From Natronobacterium texcoconense (GTDB lineage Archaea > Halobacteriota > Halobacteria > Halobacteriales > Natrialbaceae), in NCBI RefSeq assembly GCF_900104065.1, contig NZ_FNLC01000002.1, forward strand, positions 1,098,995-1,162,994: a stretch of 64,000 nt of DNA. The letters run 5' to 3'. Within the stretch, counting starts at the first letter, position 1. Each line of letters opens with the position of its first letter. This document shows positions 3,490 to 20,623 of the stretch, one piece after another. Below the pieces are notes generated by a model. It was not told the DNA's origin, did not search any database, and saw nothing but the letters and a program-made list of their open reading frames with translations. The translations under genes and the position numbers were made by a program.

Positions 3490-6408
3490 ATGTCAGCGCC
3501 AAGCGAAATTCATCGAAGCCTATATCGGCTGTACGAACGATACGTGGGGGAACCGGATTCGGGGAAAGACGTCTACGGCTACTGGTTGTTCATCCTCGGT
3601 TACGCTATCGGGGCTGCGGGCATCGTCGCGTTCATCGTCGGCTACGGTGGGAATATCGCCGAGACGGAGATGATCCACATCTCGGGTGTTACGGCCTCGG
3701 TCGGTCTCGCGCTCTGTTTGTTCGGAATCGGGTTGATGCTGCCGGTACGAAAACGAGGGATTCAGGCGAGCGTGGTCGGGCTGATGATTTCATTAGTCGG
3801 AGTCGCGATGTTTGGAGTGGCCTACCCCCAGGACTGGCGAGAGCGGGGAATGCAACTCGACGTCGAAGTGATTTCGGTCTACGCCGCCGGAATCGCGATT
3901 ATCGCCGGCGTTGCGGTCCTCGTCCCCGTGTTGACCGGCCGGAAAGGAATGTTCGTCGAGGAGGAAAAAGAAAGCGAGGAAGCGCCGATCCTCACCGGTA
4001 ACGCCCTCGAGGACGCCCAGTTCGCGGTCTTCCGGGACGAACACGGCGACTGGAAGTGGCACGTCCTCCACCGTGAGGCGCTGGCCGAGAGCAACAGTAG
4101 TGCAGTTACTCGTCCCGAAGCACGGGAAGGAATCGACCGGGTCAAGTCCCAGATCAGTTCTGCAGGCCTGATGGAACTGACGACCTCGGCGTTCCGACTC
4201 TACGAGGACCGAGACGGGTCCTGGCAGTGGACGCTCGCGCGCGACGACGGGAGCGTCGTCGCTGACTGCGGCCGCGAGTTCGATCGACGCGACGGCGCAG
4301 AGAAGTCGGTGAGTTTCCTCAAGGATCGAGGGCCGGACGCAGACGTCATCGAGATCGAAGGGGCCGCGTTCACCTACACCGAAGAGCGCGGGAAGTGGTA
4401 CTGGAAACTCGTCGACGACGACCACGCGACGCTGGCCGTCGACGAGGTCGGCCACACCGAACAGGACGACGCGGAGGAGGCTGCCCGGACGTTCGCCGAA
4501 CGGTTCGCGGACGCCCGACTGCTCGATATCGACCACTTCGGCGTCGAACTCTACGAAACAGACGGCGAGTGGACCTGGCGATTCGTCGACGATGCGGACG
4601 ACGTCGTCGCCGATGCCGCCGACACCTACGACACGCGACGCGACGCCGAGGAAGCCGCCGAAGCACTGTTGCCGGCACTCGAGTCCGCGTCCGTCACCGT
4701 CGCCGGCGAACCGACCTACGAACTCTACGAGTCCGGCGAGGAGTGGCGCTGGCGACTCGTCGACGAAGCCGAAGACGTCGTCGCACGGACGCCCGGAACG
4801 GAGACCGACGAGGAACGGATCGAGTGGGAGACCACACAGTTCGGCGACCACGCCGACGATGCCGACATCATCGAAATCGAGGCAGCCGAGTACGAGGTCT
4901 ATCCATCCGACGAGAGCGCCGACGCCTCCTCGAGCGAGGACGACCACCTGCCGAAAGCGGTCGACGAGCCGGCTGCGGCCACCGACGGCGGAACGTCCGT
5001 CACGTTCGACGAGGGCGAGGGGCCGGACGAACCGGAGGGGCCGGATTGGCACTGGCGGCTCGTCACCGAAGACCGCGATATCGTCGCCGCGAGTACCGAG
5101 CCACACCCCGACGCCGATACCGCGACGTCGGCGATCGAACGCGTGCGCGAGCAGGCGAACGAGGCCGACCTGATCGAGTTCGAGCAGTCGGCGTTCCAGG
5201 TCTACGAGGCCGACTCCGGCGAGTGGCGCTGGCGGCTGATCGACGAGGACGGCAACGTACTGGCCGACAGCGGCGAGGAGCACACCTCTCGTGGCGAGGC
5301 TGCCGAGGCGATGATGACGCTGAAAGAGCGAGCACCCGACGCCGAACTGCTCGAGATCGAGACTGCCGCGTTCGAACTGTTCGTCAACGAGGACGACGAG
5401 TGGGGCTGGCGGCTGATCGACGAGGGTGGCCAGCTCGTCGCCGAGGACCCGGCGACGCACCCGACTCGCGACGCGGCACGGGACGCGATGAACCGGCTGC
5501 TCGAGCACCTCGACTCGGACGTCCGGACGATGGAGGACGCTGCCTTCCAGACCTACGCCGACGAGGACTGGCACTGGCGGTTCGTCCTTCCGTCGGGCGA
5601 GACGGTCGCGGTCGACGACGAGCCGTCCCCGACGCGTGACGATCTCGTGGACGAACTCGAGTCGATCCGACAGGCAGCGTCGGCGGCCCGGCAGTCGACG
5701 ATCGGCGACGCAGCAGTACAGCTCTACGACAACGGCTCCTGGTCGTGGCGCTTGCTCGATCGCGACCGCGAAGAGATCGCCGACGCTGCCGTCTCCTATG
5801 CCGACCGAGACGGCGCGCTCGAGCAGGTCGACGAGTGTCGTACTCACGCGACCGACGCACCGATTTTCACCATCGAGGAGGCCGCGATCCGCCTCGAGGA
5901 TGGAGACGACGACGGCTGGTGCTGGGATCTCGTCGACGACGAACGGACGGTCTACGCGAGCGGCGGCACGGTCGCCGACACGAAAGCGGACGAACTGGAC
6001 GAGATCGACGAGATTCGCCAGCTCGCTCCGATGGCGGGCCGGGTCGACTTCGACGTTGCGTCCTTCGAACTGATCGCGAACGACGACGACCGCTGGCAGT
6101 GGCGGCTGATCGACGAGGACGGCCGACCGGTCGCGACGGGTACCGAGACCTACGAGTCGAGCGAGGCTGCTCGAGAGGCGCTCGACGACGTCCGGACGCT
6201 CATCGGGAACGCGAGCATCCTCGAAATCGACAGCGTCTCGTTCGAACTCCACACCGACGAGGACGGCTGGGTGTGGCGGCTTGTCGACGAGTTCGGCTCG
6301 ACGATGGCCGAGAGTACCCAGACCTACGAGAACCGTACCGAGGCTCGCGAAGCGATGAACGCGGTGAAGTCTCACGCCCCCGACGGCTGGCTCACCTTCA
6401 CCGAGTAA
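3490..6408 (+). CDS. giant membrane protein with 13 DUF1508-like repeats
   Basis: A 972-residue protein. Four transmembrane segments sit at about 31-52, 66-86, 91-112 and 128-148. The rest is about 13 acidic modules of roughly 62 residues, each with a W-x-W core and a fixed layout (for example EWRWRLIDEDGNVLADSGE, then a helix rich in EAxxAMxxLKERAPDA, then a strand such as LLEIETAAFELF). This matches the DUF1508/YegP-like haloarchaeal modules. The modules probably form a string of small beta-rich domains on one face of the membrane; their function is unknown. Start 3490 was chosen over an in-frame start at 3397 because the upstream codons are AT-rich and not protein-like. It is monocistronic. 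Confidence 0.85.
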   Translation: MSAPSEIHRSLYRLYERYVGEPDSGKDVYGYWLFILGYAIGAAGIVAFIVGYGGNIAETEMIHISGVTASVGLALCLFGIGLMLPVRKRGIQASVVGLMISLVGVAMFGVAYPQDWRERGMQLDVEVISVYAAGIAIIAGVAVLVPVLTGRKGMFVEEEKESEEAPILTGNALEDAQFAVFRDEHGDWKWHVLHREALAESNSSAVTRPEAREGIDRVKSQISSAGLMELTTSAFRLYEDRDGSWQWTLARDDGSVVADCGREFDRRDGAEKSVSFLKDRGPDADVIEIEGAAFTYTEERGKWYWKLVDDDHATLAVDEVGHTEQDDAEEAARTFAERFADARLLDIDHFGVELYETDGEWTWRFVDDADDVVADAADTYDTRRDAEEAAEALLPALESASVTVAGEPTYELYESGEEWRWRLVDEAEDVVARTPGTETDEERIEWETTQFGDHADDADIIEIEAAEYEVYPSDESADASSSEDDHLPKAVDEPAAATDGGTSVTFDEGEGPDEPEGPDWHWRLVTEDRDIVAASTEPHPDADTATSAIERVREQANEADLIEFEQSAFQVYEADSGEWRWRLIDEDGNVLADSGEEHTSRGEAAEAMMTLKERAPDAELLEIETAAFELFVNEDDEWGWRLIDEGGQLVAEDPATHPTRDAARDAMNRLLEHLDSDVRTMEDAAFQTYADEDWHWRFVLPSGETVAVDDEPSPTRDDLVDELESIRQAASAARQSTIGDAAVQLYDNGSWSWRLLDRDREEIADAAVSYADRDGALEQVDECRTHATDAPIFTIEEAAIRLEDGDDDGWCWDLVDDERTVYASGGTVADTKADELDEIDEIRQLAPMAGRVDFDVASFELIANDDDRWQWRLIDEDGRPVATGTETYESSEAAREALDDVRTLIGNASILEIDSVSFELHTDEDGWVWRLVDEFGSTMAESTQTYENRTEAREAMNAVKSHAPDGWLTFTE

Positions 6409-7562: not shown

Positions 7563-7952
7563 ATGAAGACCACACGGCATGCGACCTACAACCTCAACTA
7601 CCACATAGTGTGGTTGCCGAAGTGCCGTCAGTCGGTACTCGTCAACGAGGTCGCCGACCGTGTGCGAGACATCCTCCACGAAATCGCCGACGACAAGGGC
7701 TTAGAGATAATCGACCTGACCGTTCAACCCGACCACATCCACCTGTTCGTCAGTAGTCCACCGAAACACGCCCCATCCCTTCTCGCCAACTGGTTCAAAG
7801 GCATCTCCTCGCGCAAATACAACCATCGCTACGCCAACAACGACGGCGAGAAGATTCGATGGGCGCGGGGCTACTACGCAGGAACGGCGGGCCACGTTTC
7901 CAGCGAAACGGTTCAGGACTACATCCAGCGTCACGAGGGGGGAGACACATGA
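7563..7952 (+). CDS. tnpA: IS200/IS605 transposase TnpA (Y1 HUH)
   Basis: A full-length Y1 transposase of 129 residues. The HUH pair is His58 and His60 in QPDHIHLFVS, and the catalytic tyrosine is Tyr120 in SSETVQDYIQRH. YHIVWLPKCR near the N-terminus is also characteristic. It excises and integrates single-stranded element DNA. Nothing looks broken. Its stop overlaps the tnpB ATG (ATGA), so the two are translationally coupled. Confidence 0.95.
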   Translation: MKTTRHATYNLNYHIVWLPKCRQSVLVNEVADRVRDILHEIADDKGLEIIDLTVQPDHIHLFVSSPPKHAPSLLANWFKGISSRKYNHRYANNDGEKIRWARGYYAGTAGHVSSETVQDYIQRHEGGDT

Positions 7953-9187
7953 CGGAACTCACCAAAACGCTGGAACTGAAACTGGTAGACCCGAACGCCC
8001 ACAAGCGGAAGAAACTCCGCGAAACTCGGGACGCCTACCAACAGGCCCTTCAGGATGCGTTCGACGCTGGTTGTACCACCCAAACCGAAGCGAACGATGT
8101 AGTGGTCAATTACGACTTGTCGGGGTACGCGAAGAACGCCCTCAAGAAGTACGTCCCGCAGTTGACGACGACGTACAATGCAGGCGACCTACACGACGAC
8201 CACCCCGTTCGGTTCACCAACGAGGGGCTACGCCTCGACCACAAGCCCGAGAACGCAATCGAGTGGTACGTCAAAATCCCGCATCATGAAGACTATCATC
8301 TCTGGATGCCAGCACAACCGAATCCCGACCAACGGGACTGGCTGGAAGCGTTAAACGCTGGTGACGCCGAGATGGGAGAGAGTCGGCTGTTACAGCGGAA
8401 CGGAACGTGGTATCTCCACGTCACCGCCACCCGCGACGTGGAGGACTGTTCCGAGGCGTCCGTCGATGAACAGATGCCTATCGGAGTGGACATTGGGGAA
8501 GCGTCACTCGTCACGGTGTGTCACCGCGACGACTACGGTTCTCCAACCCGCCCCGAACTGTGGGCCGACGAAGGCAAGACCGTTCGCCAGCTACGCAAAA
8601 CCTACTTCACCGCCACGCGACGGCTTCAGGAACGCGGAAGCGAGCGTCTCGCCGAGTCGTTCGGTGACCACCTGTGGACCCAGATAGACGACGTGTTCCA
8701 CCGTGTCACCCGCGAAGTCGTGGAGTACGCCGAATCCGTCGAGAACCCCGTTCTCGTTCTGGAAGACCTGACGTACATTCGGGAGTCGATGGACTACGGC
8801 GAATACATGAATCGCCGTCTTCACGGGTGGGGATTCGCCAAACTCCACGCGCAGATACGGTACAAGGCCGTCGAGAAGGGGATTCCCGTCAAGACGGTGA
8901 ATCCACGCAACACCTCGAAAGAGTGCCATGCGTGTGGTAAAGTGGGGTATCGTCCAAAGCAGGCGACGTTCAAATGCACGAACGATGACTGTTGGATGGG
9001 CGAATACCAAGCGGACGTGAACGGGGCGATAAACATCGCAGACCGCTACCTCAGCGGAGAGAGTCGTTCCAGAGAACACAAGAACGACGATGACTCGGCT
9101 GAGGATGGGGCGCGTTTGACCGCGCCACAAGACAGCCAAGCCGATGCTGAAATCCAGCAGGAGACGCTTGGAACGTATGCGTCTTGA
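7949..9187 (+). CDS. tnpB: IS605 TnpB, RNA-guided nuclease
   Basis: A 412-residue TnpB with an apparently intact RuvC triad: Asp181 in IGVDIGEAS, Glu272 in VLEDLTYI and Asp356 in QADVNGAINIAD. A zinc finger with CHACG and CTNDDC lies between the last two. The start is the ATG overlapping the tnpA stop, giving the family N-terminus MTELTKTLELKL. TnpB proteins are omega-RNA-guided DNA nucleases that help the element persist; activity here is inferred from the preserved residues. Confidence 0.95.
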   Translation: MTELTKTLELKLVDPNAHKRKKLRETRDAYQQALQDAFDAGCTTQTEANDVVVNYDLSGYAKNALKKYVPQLTTTYNAGDLHDDHPVRFTNEGLRLDHKPENAIEWYVKIPHHEDYHLWMPAQPNPDQRDWLEALNAGDAEMGESRLLQRNGTWYLHVTATRDVEDCSEASVDEQMPIGVDIGEASLVTVCHRDDYGSPTRPELWADEGKTVRQLRKTYFTATRRLQERGSERLAESFGDHLWTQIDDVFHRVTREVVEYAESVENPVLVLEDLTYIRESMDYGEYMNRRLHGWGFAKLHAQIRYKAVEKGIPVKTVNPRNTSKECHACGKVGYRPKQATFKCTNDDCWMGEYQADVNGAINIADRYLSGESRSREHKNDDDSAEDGARLTAPQDSQADAEIQQETLGTYAS

Positions 9188-11988: not shown

Positions 11989-12993
11989 ATGCAAGAACAA
12001 GTAACCCTAAAATGCGTTTCGTGTGACACATCGTTCGAACCGGGACCGAACGGCGGCTTTTGTCCGAGCTGTGACACGCCGCACCCGGACTACGCGGGTA
12101 GCGACGGAGATGGGGACGAGGAAGCGACGGAAGACGACTCCGAGTCGACGGGAGTGGAGGACGACGAGTCGGAAGACGTAGTCGACGAAGCGGAAACGGA
12201 CGAGAGCAAGGTCGACGACGACTCTGACGCGGACGAACAGGAAGAAGCCGTCGAGGGGGCCGAACCGGACGGCGAGTCCGCCGAAGACGACGAACTCGAA
12301 GAAGAAGCCGCCGAACCGGAAGCGGAGACGGTCGAAGACGATGCTGACGAAGACGAATTGGAAGAAGAGGCCGCCGAACCCGACGTAGACGAGAGCCAGG
12401 TCGACGACGAGTCCGAACCGGACCAGGCTGACGAAACAGCGGCGGACGAGGACGAACCCACGGCCGACGAGACCTGCCACTCGTGTGGCGCGGAGGTCGA
12501 CGCGTCGATGGCGTTCTGTCCCGACTGCGGAGCCGAACTCGAGGAGGACGACGAGCCGGAGCTCACTGCCTGTCCGAGCTGCGAGAACCCGGTCGACGAC
12601 GAGGCGTACTGCCCGAGCTGTGGACTGCATCTCGACCCGATCCGGGAGGGCGAGGAGTCCGCGGACGACGCGTCCACGGCGGACGTCCCCGAGGAAGTCA
12701 CGCTCGTCATCAACGGCGAGGAGTACACCTTCGGCGACGGCGACACGTTCGGCCGGCAGGACGGCGAGTGGCTCGAGGATCTCGTCGAGGCAAGCGGCGG
12801 CCGCGACGAGGTAACCTACGTCTCGAGCGAACACCTCGAATTTTCCGTCGAGGACGACGGCATCTACGCGGTCGACGTCAGCACCAACGGGACCAGACAC
12901 AACGGAACGGAGATCGACGGCACGTCGGCGAAACTCGAGGACGGAGACTCGCTCGAACTCGCCGATCGTGCGGAACTCGAGGTGAGCCTCTAG
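11989..12993 (+). CDS. zinc-ribbon and FHA domain adaptor protein
   Basis: A 334-residue protein in three parts. Residues 1-30 hold a zinc ribbon (CVSCDTSFEPGPNGGFCPSC). About 45-160 is an extremely acidic Glu/Asp/Ala tract. About 162-215 carries two more CxxC ribbon pairs (CHSCGAEV...CPDCG and CPSCENPV...CPSCG). The last 100 residues form an FHA domain (TFGDGDTFGRQ, SSEHLEFSVEDDGIY, VSTNGTRHNGTEI), which binds phosphothreonine. It heads the cluster with the vWA, kinase and PP2C genes and is a likely phospho-dependent scaffold. Soluble; no signal peptide. Confidence 0.85.
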   Translation: MQEQVTLKCVSCDTSFEPGPNGGFCPSCDTPHPDYAGSDGDGDEEATEDDSESTGVEDDESEDVVDEAETDESKVDDDSDADEQEEAVEGAEPDGESAEDDELEEEAAEPEAETVEDDADEDELEEEAAEPDVDESQVDDESEPDQADETAADEDEPTADETCHSCGAEVDASMAFCPDCGAELEEDDEPELTACPSCENPVDDEAYCPSCGLHLDPIREGEESADDASTADVPEEVTLVINGEEYTFGDGDTFGRQDGEWLEDLVEASGGRDEVTYVSSEHLEFSVEDDGIYAVDVSTNGTRHNGTEIDGTSAKLEDGDSLELADRAELEVSL

Positions 12994-13182
12994 ATCGACG
13001 GACGGAGAGCGGTCTGGTCGGACGCACGATCCGACGCTCGACCGTCCGGCAACTCGATACGAGGGGGCGGACGGATGGCGAGCGTTGCGGATCGGCGACG
13101 ATCCGTCAGGCGGTCGGCGTCCTGTCACCGCTGTCTCGTGCACTCACTCGAACGAATCTGAACACACAATCCAACTGATCAC

Positions 13183-14385
13183 ATGACGACGACAATCTCA
13201 CAGACGATAAACAGGCCGTACGTACCCGAACGAGGAGGTGGCATCTCCTGCGAGTTCGTCATCGAGCCGGAGGAGAGCGACGAGACTGCCGAACGCCACA
13301 TCTCGATGTGCGTCGACAGCAGTGGCTCGATGGGCTACGGGAAGATGCGCCAGGTCCGCGATGCGGCGGGGCTGGTCTTCGGTCTGCTGAACGACGACGA
13401 CTACCTGAGCATCGTGACCTTCGACAACGAAGTCGAAGTCGTAATGGACGCGACCCGCTGGGGCGATATCGACCGCGAGGAAGTCCACGAACGACTGGAC
13501 GCAGTCGAGACCCGTGGCGGCACCGACATCTACGCCGGCGTCGAGACCGCGAAGAAGACGCTGCGGGAACTCCCCGAGGGCGACCAGATATCGAAGCGGA
13601 TCCTGCTGCTTTCGGACGGTCGCGACCTCAATCGAAAGTCTCCGGAGTTCGAGCCGCTGGCGAAGGCGGTCGCCGACGGCGGCATCTCCATCTACTCCGC
13701 GGGTATCGGGACCAACTACGACCAGGACATCATCCGCACGCTGGGCGAACACTCCCAGGGGCGGTGGACGCACGTGGACAAACCGGTCGACATCAGGTCC
13801 TTCTTCGGCGACGTCGTCGAGGAGGCCTCGACCGTGATCGCGAACAACCCGCGGCTGGTGATCGATCCGATCCCCGGCTGTGAAATCGCCGAAGCCTACC
13901 GGCGACGACCACAGGTCCAGCAGGTCGACCTCGAGTACGACGGTGACTCCGTCGTCGTTCGGCTGCCGGACCTCCAGAACCACGAGGAACAGAAGATCGT
14001 ACTGAAGATGGACGCGCCCGGCCACGACGTCGGGACGACGGAAGCGGTCGCCGACGTCGAGTTACAGGGGCTCTCCGAGACCGTCTCGACCGCCGTCGAA
14101 GTCAGTTACACCGACGACGAGGAGAAACTCGCCCAGCAGCAACCCGACACGTTCCTCGCCTATCGCGACACGAAGATCCGGAGCCAGCTCGCACAGGCCG
14201 ACTCGGAGTCCGAACTCGAGGAGGTCAAAGAGCTGATCGACGAGACCGAAGTTATCACCGAGGAGACGTCGGTCGTCGACGACCTGCGACAGGACGTGAC
14301 CCGGATCGAGGGCGGCGACGAGGAGAAGGTTCGCAAGGTACAGGAGAACACGACGGTCGTCTACGACGGCGGTCGATTCGACTGA
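13183..14385 (+). CDS. von Willebrand factor A domain protein
   Basis: A 400-residue vWA protein. The MIDAS metal site is DSSGS at residues 45-49, with the downstream Thr in GGTDIYAG and Asp in LLSDGRDLN, so metal binding looks intact. After the vWA domain (about 35-215) comes a beta-rich half and an acidic coiled C-terminus (SESELEEVKELIDETEVI). No signal or membrane segment, so it is cytoplasmic. It sits between the FHA adaptor and the kinase, as TerY-type vWA proteins sit with kinase and PP2C partners. It could be the kinase substrate or scaffold. Confidence 0.85.
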   Translation: MTTTISQTINRPYVPERGGGISCEFVIEPEESDETAERHISMCVDSSGSMGYGKMRQVRDAAGLVFGLLNDDDYLSIVTFDNEVEVVMDATRWGDIDREEVHERLDAVETRGGTDIYAGVETAKKTLRELPEGDQISKRILLLSDGRDLNRKSPEFEPLAKAVADGGISIYSAGIGTNYDQDIIRTLGEHSQGRWTHVDKPVDIRSFFGDVVEEASTVIANNPRLVIDPIPGCEIAEAYRRRPQVQQVDLEYDGDSVVVRLPDLQNHEEQKIVLKMDAPGHDVGTTEAVADVELQGLSETVSTAVEVSYTDDEEKLAQQQPDTFLAYRDTKIRSQLAQADSESELEEVKELIDETEVITEETSVVDDLRQDVTRIEGGDEEKVRKVQENTTVVYDGGRFD

Positions 14386-14455
14386 CCATGTGGATCCGAC
14401 AGCGTCGAGTCGGGCGGTCGAACGGCTGTCGGCGTAACACGTCCCAGTCCATCAC

Positions 14456-15730
14456 ATGACCGAGTGGGAAACCGGAACCACACTCGCGGATCGGTACACC
14501 CTCCGCGAGGAAGTCGGGAAAGGCGGGTTCGGCGTCGTCTGGGCGGCGAAAGACGACGATCGAGACCGACTCGTCGCACTGAAACACCCCAACTACGGCG
14601 GCCAGGCACCCGACGACCTCGTCGACAAGTACTTCGAACGCGAACAGGACGTCCTCGAGGACATTCGCGAGGCGGGCGGTCATCCGAACATCATGGCCTA
14701 TCACGGCCAGGCGCGTGCGAACGGGACGTCGTTTCTCGACGTGGAGTTGATCGACGGCGACGAACTCGGCGAGGTCGTCGAGAACGAGGATCCCATCGGC
14801 GATCCGGACGAGGTTCGCGAGATCGGTATCGGGATCTGTGATGCGATCTCGTTCCTGCACGATCACGACATCATCTACCGGGACCTCAAGCCCGACAACA
14901 TCATGATCGACGGCGCTCGCGAGCCGAAGATTATCGACTTCACCACGGCCAAGGGGTTCGTTCCCGAACGAGGCGCACCCCAGTTTACGACCGGAGAGGG
15001 CGAGAGTTCCTCCTCGGGCGGCGATTCGACCGTTCCCGGCGAGTTCAAACCGCCGGAACTGAACCGCGGCTCCGAACAGCGACAGGGACCCTGGAGCGAC
15101 GTCTACTCGATCGGGAAGATCCTCTGTTATCTCCTGGTCGGCTGGGTTCCGAAGGATCACGGCGTCTCGCCGGCTGATTTCGGCGTCGAGAGCGACGACT
15201 ATCTGAACGAGATCGTCGAGACGGCGACCCAGCACGATCGGTCGGATCGGTATCCGAACGCGTCGGTGTTACGGCGCGCCCTGGAGGATCGGGACGCGAC
15301 GATGCCGACCCAGGCGGCGATCACCTGGCTCGGCCGCGACGAACAGTGGACGATCAGTCCCGGAGACACCATCGGACGGCGGACCGAGGACGGCCCTCGG
15401 CCGTCGCTGATGCTGTCCGACGACCGCCACAAGGCGCTGTCGGCAGTCCACTGCCGGTTCGACGTGGACGACGACGGCAACTGGTACGTGGTCGACACCA
15501 GCCTCAACGGGACCTACATCAGCAAACACGACGAACGGAAGTGGCGCTTCCTGCTCTCGGAAGCCGGCCAGGGGCGCCAGCAGCAGGCCGGCGAGTCGGT
15601 TCCCGACGACGTCGAGACCCGGGCCCGTCTGGAGGTCGGGGACACCATCGCACTGGTCAGCCCGAGCTATCCGGAGCGATTCTACTTCCAGTTTAGCACG
15701 CAGCACACAGAGACCAATGGAACACGCTAG
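14456..15730 (+). CDS. Ser/Thr protein kinase with C-terminal FHA domain
   Basis: A 424-residue Hanks-type kinase. Glycine loop GKGGFGVV (21-28), VALK lysine Lys43, YRDLKPDN loop with catalytic Asp143 (Tyr replaces the His of HRD), metal loop Asp161 in DFTTAKG (DFT, not DFG), KPPE for APE, and SDVYSIGKIL. An FHA domain follows at about 300-415 (TIGRRTEDG, SAVHCRFDV, TSLNGTYI). It should phosphorylate Ser/Thr in the cytoplasm; no transmembrane segment is present, unlike PknB. Its end overlaps the PP2C gene by 14 nt, which suggests one operon and opposing activities. Confidence 0.9.
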   Translation: MTEWETGTTLADRYTLREEVGKGGFGVVWAAKDDDRDRLVALKHPNYGGQAPDDLVDKYFEREQDVLEDIREAGGHPNIMAYHGQARANGTSFLDVELIDGDELGEVVENEDPIGDPDEVREIGIGICDAISFLHDHDIIYRDLKPDNIMIDGAREPKIIDFTTAKGFVPERGAPQFTTGEGESSSSGGDSTVPGEFKPPELNRGSEQRQGPWSDVYSIGKILCYLLVGWVPKDHGVSPADFGVESDDYLNEIVETATQHDRSDRYPNASVLRRALEDRDATMPTQAAITWLGRDEQWTISPGDTIGRRTEDGPRPSLMLSDDRHKALSAVHCRFDVDDDGNWYVVDTSLNGTYISKHDERKWRFLLSEAGQGRQQQAGESVPDDVETRARLEVGDTIALVSPSYPERFYFQFSTQHTETNGTR

Positions 15731-17345
15731 TACAGTCGACATCGGCGAACGAAAGCGACGGAGTGGCGGCATCAACGAGGACAGTATCGCGACGGCGGTG
15801 TTCGAGAACCACCACCGATCGGAGAGCCGACCGGTGGGTATCTTCGTTCTCGGCGACGGCGTCGGCGGCGAGACGAGCGGCGACGTCGCCTCTTTCCTTG
15901 CGACGACCGTGGTTCGCAAGCGACTCACGGAGGCGCTGTTGGGCGCCGGAACCGATCTTCTGGAACGATTCGAGGTCGACGCCTACGATGGACCGCCGCC
16001 GACCGCTTCGGAACGCGCGGCGTCCGCGCTGTCGCCCCGTCGCATCCGCACGGCCATCCAGGAGGGGATCGACGACGCCCATCAGTACGTCCAGGAGTAC
16101 GCCCGCGAAATCGACGGCCAGCCCGCGACCACGCTCGTCGTCGGCGTCTACGTCGACGGCCGACTCCACTACGGCTGGGTCGGTGACAGCCGCATCTACC
16201 TCGTCAACGAACGCCACGAGGAGATCCAGCAACTCACGACGGATCATGCAGTCACCAACGAACTGCTCGAGCGAGGTGAGATCGAGGACGAGGTCGGCGC
16301 ACGCATCCACACGCGCAACACGGCGATCACGAACGCCGTCGGTGGCTCGCCACACGGCAAACCGACCGTCGACGTCGAGTTCGGCTCCGTCGACGTCTAC
16401 CGGGACGACGTTCTCTTGCTGACCAGCGACGGCCTGATCGACGCCTATCCCGACGTCGCACCCCTCCGTGACGAGTACGAACGGGCCGACGACGCCGACA
16501 CGGTGCGCGAAGAGATCCTCGAGACCCTGGTCACCGACGACGAGATCAGGGACATCGTCCTCGAGGCCGCGGACCTCCAGACGGGCGTCGAGGACCTCAT
16601 TGCGTTCGCCAACGATCGCGGTGGGAAGGACAACCTCTCGATTACGCTCGCACAGGACCCGAACGCCGACCCATCGCCGGAGACGGTTGCGGATCGGCTC
16701 TCGGCGACCGAACCCGACGGTCTGGCCGACCAGGAGACGGTCATCGAGACGCCGGGATCGAACCTCGAGTCCGGGGCCGAATCCGATCGGGATCCGGAGC
16801 AAGCGGCGACCGACCGCCGCGAGTCGACGGCGTCTCCAGACGTCGTCTCGGCGACCGAGCCCGAACTGGCTACTGCGGCGATCAAGATCGCAGGGACGGA
16901 GACGATCTACGAGATCGTCGACGGCGTCACGATCGGCCGAGACGACGACGAGGCCGAGGGCGCCGGACCGAACATCTGTCTCGTCGTCGACGACGAGGCC
17001 GTCGAACGACACCACACCCGTATCGAACGCGACGAGAGTGGCGACTGGTGGCTCCGCGATACCAGCGACGCCGGTACGTTCGTAGAAGACGACGGCGAGT
17101 GGATCCATCTCCGGTCGACGGACGACACGAGCGACGACGAGACGTACGACCCCGACGACGCCCGGTTCGTCAGTGACGGCCCCGAAGCACACCGGCTTCG
17201 GGACGGCACGACGTTCACGCTCGAGGACCCACGCGAGACCGATCCGATCGCGTTTCGCTTTTTCGGCGGCGTCGAACTGGCCCAGGAGCCGACGGGAGAA
17301 GACGAATCGGCGAACGAGAGTCTCCTCGAGCGATTCCGATCGTAG
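15717..17345 (+). CDS. PP2C-type protein phosphatase with C-terminal FHA domain
   Basis: A 542-residue protein. The PP2C domain covers about 1-300 with NEDS (Asp22), GDGVGG (46-51), YGWVGDSRIYLV, LLTSDGLIDA and GGKDNLSITL, so the two-metal centre looks complete. A charged linker follows and then an FHA domain at about 385-500 (TIGRDDDE, VERHHTRIE, DTSDAGTFV). It dephosphorylates Ser/Thr and its FHA domain probably keeps it on the same phosphorylated partners as the kinase. It overlaps the kinase gene by 14 nt. Confidence 0.9.
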   Translation: MEHASTVDIGERKRRSGGINEDSIATAVFENHHRSESRPVGIFVLGDGVGGETSGDVASFLATTVVRKRLTEALLGAGTDLLERFEVDAYDGPPPTASERAASALSPRRIRTAIQEGIDDAHQYVQEYAREIDGQPATTLVVGVYVDGRLHYGWVGDSRIYLVNERHEEIQQLTTDHAVTNELLERGEIEDEVGARIHTRNTAITNAVGGSPHGKPTVDVEFGSVDVYRDDVLLLTSDGLIDAYPDVAPLRDEYERADDADTVREEILETLVTDDEIRDIVLEAADLQTGVEDLIAFANDRGGKDNLSITLAQDPNADPSPETVADRLSATEPDGLADQETVIETPGSNLESGAESDRDPEQAATDRRESTASPDVVSATEPELATAAIKIAGTETIYEIVDGVTIGRDDDEAEGAGPNICLVVDDEAVERHHTRIERDESGDWWLRDTSDAGTFVEDDGEWIHLRSTDDTSDDETYDPDDARFVSDGPEAHRLRDGTTFTLEDPRETDPIAFRFFGGVELAQEPTGEDESANESLLERFRS

Positions 17346-17419
17346 TCGGATCTCACGAGCGTCTCGAGCGGAACCCACGGAATCTGGTTTTCGGCGGAAA
17401 ATTCGGTGTCCGGTGGCGT

Positions 17420-18706
17420 TTAGAGTTCACAGCCACAGAGCGGGCAGAAGGTGTAGGCGCCGTCTGACGGGATGTCCTCCCCACAGTCGGGACACACCTC
17501 TGCAGGATCGGCGTCCGCGTCGTACCCGCCGAAGTCGCCGGCGAAGATGCGCGTATCGGATGCGAACTCTTCGGTAGATTCGACGTCGTCCGTCTCTCCC
17601 TGGCCGTGTGAAGTCGAGACGACCGCTGGCTGGCCCTCGCTCTCGTCGGAATCAGCCGTCTCCTCCTGGTTGTCTTGGTCGGACTCGCTCCCGTCGGCCG
17701 CCGAGTCGCTGGTATGCTCGCTCGAGTCGTCCTCGCGTTCGGTATCGATCGAGTCACTGACGTCGGAGTCGGTCGCTCGGGGCGAGCGCGATCCGCTACC
17801 GGAGGGGCTCGAGGGGACGACCGGCCCTTTCCGTCGCGGCCGTCTGTTGACTGTCGCCGCTCCGCTCGGAGCGCGTTTCGACTTCGCTACCGCTTTCTCG
17901 GAGTCGTCCGTCGACGGCTCGGTCTGGCTCGTCTCCGACTCGGACGCTCGAGTATCCTCCTCGTCGCTCCGGATCGACGGGACGATACTGGCGAGTCGTT
18001 CGCCAAGCGCCGGCGAGTCCGACGTCTCGCGGCCTGCCTGCAGGAACGCGAGCCCGTAAGCGGTCGTAACCAGCAGCGGAGCGGCGACGAGGAACGCGCG
18101 GTCGAACGGCATGCCGGTCTCGGGAACGACGGCGAGCAGGAGCTGACTGAGCGGTCCCGCTCCCACGACAGGGTAGTCGCTCGCGAGGGCGACGACGACC
18201 GCGAAGGCAGGTAGCCCCGTAATCGCGCCGGCCAGCATGTTCGTCCGGATCCGGTTCCCTCGCAGCGATCCGACGGCGATCGTTCGGAACGCGAGTGCGT
18301 GTGCTGCGACCACGACGAGGACGAACGCCCACAGCGGAAGCGCCAGCGCCTCGGTCGTCGCCACCACGTAGCCGACCGGAGCGACGATAGCGACCACCGG
18401 GACGACGGCCAGCGACAGCGGACGAACGTCCTCGAATCGCGACTCGAGAACGCGACGGTAGCCGACCACCGCGAGCGCGCCCCCGGAGACGACCACGAGC
18501 CCAGTAGCGACCGCCACGGCGATCCGCCCGGCTTCGAGGCCGATCTCGCTTGCCCCCGCGAGTACGCCCACCGACTGCACCATACTGTGAGCGGCCGCGC
18601 CAAAGAGCAGTATGGCGACTGTCGCCAGTATCGAGAGAGGGACGGCGATAGCCTCGAGGACGGTAAGGACGCCGTGGTCGTACGTCGATCTATTCAGCAA
18701 TTCCAT
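17420..18706 (-). CDS. polytopic membrane protein with C-terminal zinc ribbon
   Basis: A 428-residue protein. The first 230 residues contain about six or seven hydrophobic segments (for example VPLSILATVAILLFGAA and LWAFVLVVVAAHALAF). A long acidic Ser-rich cytoplasmic linker with TM-proximal RLASIVPSIRSDEED follows. The end is a zinc ribbon, CPDCGEDIPSDGAYTFCPLCG. It is convergent with the PP2C gene, 74 nt apart. The Ser-rich tail is a plausible target of the neighbouring kinase, and the ribbon echoes those of the FHA adaptor; both links are inference. Confidence 0.8.
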   Translation of the reverse strand: MELLNRSTYDHGVLTVLEAIAVPLSILATVAILLFGAAAHSMVQSVGVLAGASEIGLEAGRIAVAVATGLVVVSGGALAVVGYRRVLESRFEDVRPLSLAVVPVVAIVAPVGYVVATTEALALPLWAFVLVVVAAHALAFRTIAVGSLRGNRIRTNMLAGAITGLPAFAVVVALASDYPVVGAGPLSQLLLAVVPETGMPFDRAFLVAAPLLVTTAYGLAFLQAGRETSDSPALGERLASIVPSIRSDEEDTRASESETSQTEPSTDDSEKAVAKSKRAPSGAATVNRRPRRKGPVVPSSPSGSGSRSPRATDSDVSDSIDTEREDDSSEHTSDSAADGSESDQDNQEETADSDESEGQPAVVSTSHGQGETDDVESTEEFASDTRIFAGDFGGYDADADPAEVCPDCGEDIPSDGAYTFCPLCGCEL

Positions 18707-18819: not shown

Positions 18820-19470
18820 TTAGTCCGTGATCCGCGGCGAGACCGTGTCTCGTTCACCGTTTCGGTCGACTGTCAGAGACTCGTCGATGCCGACAGACGG
18901 AAGCCGGGATTTGACGTTCTCGAGCAGTTCTTCTACCCGATAGTAGGACAGCGAGAGATACTCGCTCAACTTGCGACTCGCGGTCGCGTCGATTTCGTAG
19001 CTGATCCCGCGTGAGCCGTTCAGTTTCTCGTCGTCGTAGTTGACCAGTACTCGGCGTGCCAGTTCGACGCCCTTCTCGGCGTCGTACCCCCGTGCGACGT
19101 AGTGTTTGTAGGGATGTCGGATCCACGAACACTCCCAGTGAGCGTAGACGTCGACCTTCTCGGCGTCGTCGAGTTCGTGAATCACGATGTGTAGCTGGTC
19201 GTCGGAAAGCGGCGACTCGCGCCACACCCACGACCCCTCGGAGGTGTTACCATCCATCCGGACCTTCAGCGAGGCGATCGGGTTCCGCGAGAAGCCGAGA
19301 TCGGCGAGGATCTCCTCGAGTCGGTCCTCGGAGCAGTGAGCCGTCAGTGCATACTCGTCTTCCGTCGTGTGGCTGACGGCGTAGCCCCCGAAACTCCCCT
19401 CGATCAGGTAGTGTAGCTGCGGGATGAAGCTCCGCCGGACGGCGTTGACGAAGTCCTCTGTGTACCCCAT
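18820..19470 (-). CDS. conserved hypothetical protein, 216 aa
   Basis: I do not recognise this soluble 216-residue protein. It begins MGYTEDFVNAVRRSFIPQ and has mixed alpha/beta content with HIVIHELDDAEKVDVYAHWE and a basic region HPYKHYVARGYDAEKGVELAR. No catalytic motif, signal or membrane segment is seen. The frame is open further upstream, but I prefer the ATG at 19470 because the extension would lie antisense to the small gene at 19576. Confidence 0.6.
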   Translation of the reverse strand: MGYTEDFVNAVRRSFIPQLHYLIEGSFGGYAVSHTTEDEYALTAHCSEDRLEEILADLGFSRNPIASLKVRMDGNTSEGSWVWRESPLSDDQLHIVIHELDDAEKVDVYAHWECSWIRHPYKHYVARGYDAEKGVELARRVLVNYDDEKLNGSRGISYEIDATASRKLSEYLSLSYYRVEELLENVKSRLPSVGIDESLTVDRNGERDTVSPRITD

Positions 19471-19575
19471 AACTGGGTACGTCCACGGGACGTAACCGAT
19501 TGAGCGTTGGGCAAGCAGGTGCCACTCCAGTCTGTCGTCCCAACGATTATTTCGCGCCACCTCGAATTCGGAGGT

Positions 19576-19773
19576 ATGCCATCGCTCGAGCCACCGTGTC
19601 TGCGATCGGAACATGCCTCCAAGGGAGCGGCCGAAGGAGCGAAACTGGGCGGGAAAGTCGGCGGCGTCGCCGGTCCCGCTGGCGGTGCGGTCGGTGCCGG
19701 CGTCGGTGCGGCGACGGGCTACCTCGCGGGGACGGCCAGAGACCGCGTCGAGTCCGTACTGAAACCGTTTTGA
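19576..19773 (+). CDS. glycine-rich small protein, 65 aa
   Basis: A 65-residue protein whose middle is a glycine-zipper-like segment (GGKVGGVAGPAGGAVGAGVG) able to insert in or lie on a membrane, ending in an amphipathic helix (RDRVESVLKPF). GGAGGT-like bases sit directly before the ATG and a TTATTT box lies about 25 nt upstream. Third codon positions are GC-rich as in real genes here. It does not resemble a named family to me. Confidence 0.5.
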   Translation: MPSLEPPCLRSEHASKGAAEGAKLGGKVGGVAGPAGGAVGAGVGAATGYLAGTARDRVESVLKPF

Positions 19774-19870
19774 GCACGTCGCCCACCGTAGAGCTGCCGG
19801 GGCCATCGGTGTCACCCGCTGTCGAGGGTGATACCGCGAGCCTAAACGTGGGACGGCCCTAGAAGCCATC

Positions 19871-20623
19871 ATGACCGTTGGCACCGAGACGACGCTCTAC
19901 GAGGCTCCGCCGACGAACGTCTTCCAGGATCAGGGCTCCTTTCGAACCTACTTCAACTTCCCCGGACGGCTCCACCCCGATCACGACGATCACGGCTACG
20001 GACCGCTCGCGACGGTCGTCGAGTCGTTCATGGACCCGGATACGCTGATCTCGATGCACCCCCACCAGAACGACGAGATCGTCTCCTGGGTACCGGACGG
20101 CGTGATGCGCCACGACGACCGAGAGGACAACAAACTGGTGACCGACCCCGAACACCTGCTCGTGATGAACTCCGGGAGCGGCTTCTGGCACGAAGAGCGA
20201 ACAGATGCGGACGACCCACCGCTTCGGATGCTCCAGATATTCGTCCGCCCGCACAGCCTCGACCTCGAGCCGACCATCCAGCACGGCCCGATTCCCGAAT
20301 CCACGACCAACGAGTGGCGACACCTCTTCGGTCCCGAAGGCGGCGACGCCCCGTTTGCCGTCCGGAACGAGGTCGACTTCTTCGACGTCCGTCTCGACGC
20401 CGACTCGAGCGTCGACTTCCCTCGCGCCGACGGACGAGACGTCTACTTCTACGTCTTCGAGGGAGCGATCGAGGCCGACGGCACCCGATTCGACGAACGA
20501 GAACAGGGACTGATCGTCGACGGCGGCGAGGTGACGGCTACCGCGCTCGAGGAGACGACGCTCGTCGCCTTCCTCGTCGATCCGGACGCACCGGTGACGC
20601 GACAGGGGACGATCGGTCGATAA
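19871..20623 (+). CDS. pirin family protein (cupin)
   Basis: A 250-residue bicupin of the pirin/YhhW type. The metal-binding residues are in SMHPHQNDEIVSWV and SGSGFWHEE (two His before, one His and Glu after), and LRMLQIFVRP is the usual strand. Family members include quercetin 2,3-dioxygenases and redox-responsive proteins. The C-terminal cupin (YVFEGAIEAD) lacks obvious metal residues, as is usual. The substrate is unknown. tyrS follows 74 nt downstream. Confidence 0.8.
   Translation: MTVGTETTLYEAPPTNVFQDQGSFRTYFNFPGRLHPDHDDHGYGPLATVVESFMDPDTLISMHPHQNDEIVSWVPDGVMRHDDREDNKLVTDPEHLLVMNSGSGFWHEERTDADDPPLRMLQIFVRPHSLDLEPTIQHGPIPESTTNEWRHLFGPEGGDAPFAVRNEVDFFDVRLDADSSVDFPRADGRDVYFYVFEGAIEADGTRFDEREQGLIVDGGEVTATALEETTLVAFLVDPDAPVTRQGTIGR

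Follow-up and report, generated by a model that had tools for sequence, protein, structure and literature searches.

A conserved haloarchaeal signalling gene cluster with ArnAB-like architecture and a shared T-x-[IV] motif

Five genes and their domains

The window, by which we mean the whole 64,000-nucleotide stretch of DNA analysed, contains five neighbouring genes that a preliminary description had grouped as an archaeal phospho-signalling module. All five reading frames are open, show coding-type codon usage and return the domain matches expected of them, which confirms the genes at the positions given there. An ArnA-like adaptor (334 aa; 11989..12993, + strand) is followed on the same strand by an ArnB-like vWA protein (400 aa; 13183..14385, + strand), a Ser/Thr kinase-FHA protein (424 aa; 14456..15730, + strand) and a PP2C-FHA phosphatase (542 aa; 15717..17345, + strand). 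The kinase and PP2C genes overlap by 14 nt, as first reported, and the convergent gene beyond them encodes a membrane protein (428 aa; 17420..18706, - strand).

The adaptor combines an N-terminal zinc ribbon, an acidic linker, a double zinc ribbon (Pfam E 1.5e-9) and a C-terminal FHA domain (E 2.5e-6). Its N-terminal ribbon (12013..12072, + strand; CVSCDTSFEPGPNGGFCPSC) is invariant, and the phospho-binding GR, S and N-G of the FHA domain (Pfam stretch 12817..12960, + strand) are intact. Within the adaptor's own lineage this pocket set is retained, and in Haloarcula types the usual Ser is replaced by His. An N-terminal zinc finger joined to a C-terminal FHA domain with a phosphothreonine pocket is also the layout of ArnA; the resemblance is one of layout only, the sequence-level matches being non-significant (8s05_C, E 0.1; 5a8i_A, E 0.18).

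Domain analysis of the vWA protein (VWA, E 7.8e-19) revealed that the MIDAS residues D45xS47xS49..T114..D145 are invariant across 20 relatives, so the claim of an intact MIDAS holds. Its top PDB sequence-profile match was 8s05_A (E 7.9e-17), an entry deposited as 'Conserved protein' that the fold search identified as part of the Sulfolobus ArnAB complex. The AF2 model (pLDDT 89) aligned with 8s05_A over 360/400 residues (model 1-395; Foldseek 7.2e-25, Z 34.5, rmsd 3.2). As modelled, the protein thus has the full ArnB fold, a vWA domain with MIDAS inserted in a beta-sandwich and followed by a C-terminal helix bundle, and it ends in a short tail. No ArnB_C match (Pfam/InterPro) was reported at E 0.1 among 20 members; nevertheless, the helix bundle aligns structurally. 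The highest structural score belonged to 4FX5, a vWA protein of Catenulispora acidiphila with the same three-part architecture (Z 36.7, 377 residues), which is bacterial whereas the protein described here is haloarchaeal.

The kinase domain (residues 14-248; Pkinase, E 1.1e-30) contains HRD and the catalytic Asp and Lys, with DFG reading DFT, and the C-terminal FHA domain that follows (about 305-358; E 3.4e-8) has GR, S and N in 30/30 loci. The phosphatase pairs a PP2C domain (residues 9-268; PP2C_2, E 1.4e-10) with a degenerate C-terminal FHA domain (about 404-458; E 7.4e-9) that is missing altogether from most relatives. Because its phospho-binding Ser and Asn are lost, this FHA domain is unlikely to act as a phosphothreonine reader. 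All three FHA domains proposed initially therefore exist, but phosphothreonine-binding residues are kept in only two of them.

The membrane protein has about 7 TM helices (1-228), a disordered Ser-rich tail of about 165 residues and a C-terminal zinc ribbon, CPDC..CPLC (17432..17494, - strand; CPDCGEDIPSDGAYTFCPLCG), in line with its first characterization. Its AF2 model (pLDDT 49) was too poor for a fold search. Two types of this protein occur, and they share one segment, consisting of a short threonine motif and the zinc ribbon (hhalign 99.1%).

Conservation across haloarchaea

The vWA, kinase and PP2C genes are adjacent and on the same strand in 30/30 haloarchaeal loci, with a kinase-PP2C spacing of -14 to +8 nt. 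The adaptor adjoins the module in 28/30, Haloarcula types having the kinase and PP2C genes between vWA and adaptor, and the membrane/zinc-ribbon protein is found at 24/30 loci and missing at 6/30. A search of 391 genomes of the class recovered the vWA gene in 52/52 PP2C-carrying genomes, with identical order and strand in 52/54 places. The five genes are a conserved unit. Separation of the genes in related genomes was the main outcome that could have overturned the preliminary description; they instead stay together in fixed order across haloarchaea, which supports its reading of the region as an archaeal phospho-signalling module.

A threonine motif common to three proteins

The new element of this report is a short motif, T-x-[IV], common to the vWA tail, the PP2C linker and the membrane-protein tail, where it is embedded in otherwise variable sequence. 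It lies in the C-terminal tail of the vWA protein as Q387-E-N-T-T391-V-V-Y-D395 (14341..14367, + strand), where the Thr of T-x-[IVL] is present in 30/30 loci, and in the PP2C linker as Q339-E-T341-V-I-E344 (16731..16748, + strand), where T341 is invariant in an 8-row alignment and the motif falls at the protein's end in Haloarcula types. The membrane-protein tail carries it as D384-T385-R-I-F388 (17543..17557, - strand). Of all 4-mers in the disordered tails, TRIF/TRVF is the most conserved (96% and 94%, against means of 39% and 29%), TRIF with its 96% against 39% being the form found in the window's protein.

Counted over homologues, which are not independent, and in a set overlapping the 8 loci on which it was first noticed, the motif occurs in 11/12 vWA tails (shuffle mean 3.0), 14/17 PP2C linkers (4.5) and 20/20 membrane tails (12.4), each count being reached in 0/2000 shuffles. 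Outside that set stands one tail alone, that of a HEAT membrane protein adjoining a single distant module (L027), with 11 copies against 2.2 when shuffled (maximum 8). Within the window's own genome, the L027-type HEAT protein has just a weak 75-residue repeat match. DTR[IV]F gave 9 DNA matches there. Just one reading falls in a disordered tail, that of the membrane protein of the module itself, and a second clear one lies inside a ribosomal-protein-like ORF.

Because this conserved Thr motif is common to all three, the vWA, PP2C and membrane proteins are likely common substrates, which lends support to the earlier proposal that both enzymes act on the same partners.

A candidate phosphothreonine switch and its alternatives

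Collectively, we favour, at a probability of roughly 0.6, a self-contained phosphothreonine switch built on an ArnA-ArnB-like pair. The kinase would write by phosphorylating the Thr of T-x-[IV] in the vWA tail, the PP2C linker and the disordered tail of the membrane protein, and PP2C would erase these marks and reset the system. The FHA domains of the kinase and the zinc-ribbon adaptor are the candidate readers: the former may dock the kinase onto primed substrates, and the latter may hold the adaptor together with the vWA and membrane proteins in one complex. The membrane protein could tether or report this complex at the membrane and would be the most plausible point of input or output. Counting against such a switch are the 6/30 loci lacking the membrane protein, the loss of the usual Ser from Haloarcula-type adaptor FHA domains and the non-significant sequence match of the adaptor to ArnA.

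The closest structural likeness is to ArnA-ArnB of the archaellum regulatory network of Sulfolobus acidocaldarius (PDB 8S05/5A8I; ArnE/vWA2, 5A8J), in the vWA fold and the adaptor layout. Gene adjacency is a likely further parallel (28/30 loci, with kinase and PP2C intervening in Haloarcula types), and the expected logic is Thr phosphorylation controlled by kinase and phosphatase. ArnA binds phosphorylated ArnB via FHA and C-terminal Thr, and the mapped phospho-Thr of ArnB are located in its helix bundle (PMC6509490, PMC12852372). The candidate Thr described here sits instead in a terminal tail, a difference that counts against the switch, and the likeness is one of architecture. Further departures concern the enzymes: the phosphatase is a PP2C and not a PP2A of the PPP family, and the kinase joins an N-terminal kinase domain to a C-terminal FHA domain and so departs from the ArnC/ArnD architecture, with its OB/TPR-like parts in ArnC. 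Unlike in ArnA-ArnB, PP2C and kinase share the putative operon, and further adaptor zinc ribbons and a membrane zinc-ribbon protein are added. By this analogy, the region would be a variant form of ArnAB-type signalling, which is a closer analogue than TerY-P.

TerY-P, a triad of vWA, PP2C and kinase, had served as the initial model; on that reading the three proteins would act as a metal-sensing switch attached to a stress or defence conflict system. The same three protein classes are adjacent here, and the kinase domain matches PADLOC defence-system kinases. However, the C-terminus of the kinase in TerY-P is a zinc ribbon or an OB fold (PMC11090510), whereas here it is an FHA domain in 30/30 loci, and the vWA protein is ArnB-like over its full length. 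We rejected the TerY-P model on these two features. In the loci read, genes of Ter, helicase or nuclease type do not recur next to the module, nor was any Ter or restriction partner gene seen; the PADLOC matches reflect the kinase fold in general and extend to no other module protein, so a defence annotation was likewise discarded. We regard this reading as improbable. Slightly less probable still is a T6SS-like Thr-phosphorylation pathway controlling the firing of a contractile injection system. The functional parts list equals that of PpkA/PppA/Fha1, with kinase, PP2C, FHA reader and vWA domain (PMC3224232), although PpkA fuses vWA to kinase and the present module has separate genes and no T6SS. 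In L054 and L056, contractile-tail genes (sheath, gp19 tube, Pvc16) lie directly next to the module, and the Pvc16 homologue in L027, the same locus as L054, begins with two TTRIGNP motifs. This adjacency is limited to those two metagenome-derived loci, the window's own genome gave no Pvc16 match, and module and Pvc16 co-occur in 7 genomes class-wide against 6.3 expected by chance; an injection system as the general output was therefore rejected.

A more serious alternative, though still unlikely, accepts the operon as real and takes T-x-[IV] to be a degradation signal or a peptide that docks independently of phosphorylation, with the true kinase targets elsewhere, for instance in the vWA helix bundle. 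The mapped ArnB phosphosites lie in that bundle, and motif conservation alone does not imply phosphorylation. Yet Thr is the motif's most constant residue, three unrelated proteins have the motif in common beside a kinase and FHA readers, and an acidic tail with as many as 11 copies is consistent with phosphorylation at multiple sites.

A stronger form of the favoured switch falls somewhat short of even odds: a closed one-operon phosphothreonine network with its own writer, eraser and pair of readers, and with a private motif, D/E/H-T-x-[IV]-[FYME], that the vWA, PP2C and membrane proteins share and that is repeated up to 11-fold in the HEAT protein. If true, this would give prokaryotes a counterpart to eukaryotic multisite phosphothreonine-FHA scaffolding, and to our knowledge the first of its kind proposed for haloarchaea. 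Most of what is known of Ser/Thr signalling in archaea comes from Sulfolobus, in which the network of ArnA-ArnB, their kinases and PP2A has to be assembled piece by piece. Similar logic would here be packed into one compact unit, in genera including Haloarcula, with named candidate phosphosites. Should the switch be right, it would offer a tractable archaeal phosphothreonine-FHA system, show ArnAB-type switches outside the Sulfolobales that use another phosphatase and another kinase, and open the question of output to test by deletion. Actinobacterial GarA/OdhI with PknB/PknG offers a parallel in which an FHA domain reads a short Thr-rich tail motif, ETTSV; the motif lies within the FHA protein itself and the system regulates metabolism, and we know of no vWA partner.

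A minor observation concerns the 10/62 vWA genomes that carry vWA only. The protein there is a more distant vWA, and most of the eight such loci read adjoin Hsp70/GrpE-like genes; on both grounds, module loss was rejected as the cause of this pattern.

Gene content, order and distribution

Domain analysis identified an adaptor with zinc ribbons and a C-terminal FHA domain (11989-12993, +), an ArnB-like vWA protein (13183-14385, +), a kinase (14456-15730, +) and a PP2C phosphatase (15717-17345, +), each with a C-terminal FHA domain, and a membrane protein (17420-18706, -). This agrees with the preliminary description in positions and domains, including the 14-nt overlap of the kinase and PP2C genes. 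The vWA MIDAS, likewise described as intact, is invariant among 20 relatives, and the kinase catalytic residues (GxGGF, VALK, YRDLKPDN, DF[TN]) are retained in nearly all of 30, the glycine loop being variant in two. Among the named relatives in the public scan, Halobiforma nitratireducens comes closest, its vWA protein being 96% identical.

We compared 30 haloarchaeal neighbourhoods (the window, L023, L024 and L030-L056), with genes of the relatives called by a simple codon-usage caller made for this analysis. Rather than lying mostly apart, the pattern that by the preliminary description would refute the module, vWA, kinase and PP2C are adjacent in this order and strand at all 30 loci. At 28 loci the adaptor gene flanks this triad, on the upstream side in the lineage of the window and on the downstream side in Haloarcula, and at 24 loci a membrane protein carrying a zinc ribbon at its C-terminus is encoded close by. 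In the class as a whole, sampled evenly with 391 genomes, PP2C occurs in 52, all of which also carry the vWA gene, and the order is kept within 2 kb at 52 of 54 places, the exceptions being divergent (G253) or swapped (G302). The five genes are thus a conserved unit. Its distribution is patchy, with two genus mates of the window's species (G001, G002) lacking it.

Several relatives carry a second kinase-FHA gene after PP2C (L024:9513-10739, L025:9871-11082, L026:5130-6317), which is absent from the copies in the window's genus. Upstream of the module, the genus conserves a gene (3544-6408) for a membrane protein of 954 aa, in which DUF7139 is combined with three DUF1508 repeats. An IS200/IS605-type element with Y1 transposase (TnpA) and TnpB-like genes (7563-9187), together with an AI-2E transporter gene, lies between genes that directly adjoin in relatives L022 and L023. 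Beyond the module, a 354-aa ORF matches no family (18820-19884, -); its start is uncertain because a glycine-zipper ORF on the opposite strand (19507-19773, +) overlaps its N-terminal part.

FHA domains and a shared threonine motif

All three FHA folds noted in the preliminary description are present, but they are unequal. The kinase FHA keeps its GR, S and N residues in 30/30 relatives; in the adaptor FHA they are likewise intact within the window's lineage, whereas Haloarcula types have His in place of Ser. The PP2C FHA has lost Ser and Asn wherever the domain exists, and most relatives' PP2C has no FHA at all; it is therefore probably not a reader.

Alignments revealed one invariant threonine each in the vWA tail (T391, eight loci), the PP2C linker (T341, eight loci) and the membrane protein (T385, five loci), all within a T-x-[IV] motif. 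It reads TTVVYD or ATKIVTD in the vWA tail, QETVIE or RDTVIM beyond the PP2C domain (the protein's end in Haloarcula types), and SDTRIF or SHTRVFTP ahead of the membrane protein's zinc ribbon, often with a second copy, DDTAVF. Among representatives below 70% identity, the motif occurs in 11/12 vWA tails (3.0 expected from residue-shuffled tails), 14/17 PP2C linkers (4.5) and 20/20 membrane-protein tails (12.4), with 0/2000 shuffles in each case; these counts are strong but are not formal probabilities, since the tests followed sight of the motif and the sequences are related.

TRIF is the best-conserved stretch of four residues in the membrane protein's ~165-residue disordered tail (96% versus a mean of 39%), as is TRVF in the Haloarcula type (94% versus 29%), and profiles of the two types align solely across the motif and zinc-ribbon segment (99.1%). 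A search of the window's genome found no DTR[IV]F in a disordered tail besides that of the module's membrane protein. A more independent check comes from a protein that had no part in defining the motif: a 1384-residue HEAT-repeat membrane protein beside a distant module copy (L027:12717-16871, -), whose acidic tail holds 11 copies, including GDTRVFDP and repeated SETIIMQP (shuffles 2.2, maximum 8).

Relationship to ArnAB and proposed mechanism

Over nearly its whole length, the vWA structure model (20-row alignment, pLDDT 89) superimposes on ArnB from the Sulfolobus ArnAB complex (8s05_A; Z 34.5, rmsd 3.2, 360 residues; Foldseek E 7.2e-25). It also matches a vWA protein of Catenulispora (4fx5, Z 36.7) and ArnE/vWA2 (5a8j, Z 30.2), whereas generic vWA domains score well below (Z about 22). 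8s05_A is also the top match of the sequence profile (E 7.9e-17). The adaptor shares the ArnA layout of zinc finger followed by FHA, a relation based on architecture, the sequence similarity being not significant.

PMC6509490 and PMC12852372 describe for Sulfolobus a loose ArnA-ArnB complex formed via the ArnA zinc finger, which tightens when kinase ArnC phosphorylates threonines in the ArnB C-terminus and the ArnA FHA binds them, a change that PP2A reverses. The haloarchaeal module contains comparable kinds of components, and by analogy we infer that it most likely works similarly: the kinase would phosphorylate the motif threonines and stay on its substrates through its own FHA, the adaptor FHA would bind the phosphorylated tails and its zinc ribbon would touch the vWA body, as in ArnAB, and PP2C would take the marks off. 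The likeliest candidate for a point of input or output is the membrane protein, which carries the motif and zinc ribbon on its flexible tail (structure model poor). In contrast to ArnAB, the operon itself holds a PP2C and an FHA-bearing kinase, plus the membrane protein. We do not file it as an Arn system, because the phosphatase and kinase types differ and any link to archaella would be hypothetical. PMC12852372 mentions ArnB-like structures in Halorubrum, in a passage that does not describe this operon; we found no earlier report in the open-access literature, which is no proof of absence.

Three other readings compete with an ArnAB-like switch. One is TerY-P, the vWA, kinase and PP2C triad used as comparison in the preliminary description; another is docking through contacts independent of phosphorylation. 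The third, control of a contractile injection system, finds no support in the class-wide survey, where the module and Pvc16 co-occur in seven genomes against 6.3 expected by chance. A Pvc16-type protein near the distant L027 copy (L027:2464-3294, -) starts with two TTRIGNP motifs.

A different island in G022 (L029:8496-11067) may represent another phospho-signalling type: it encodes a small PP2C and an FHA-like protein, and a large membrane protein of weak kinase similarity lies close by. Haloarchaea also have a more distant family of ArnB-like vWA proteins (L086-L093), which at most of the eight loci adjoins Hsp70/DnaK-like and GrpE-like genes and has no kinase or PP2C of the module type beside it.
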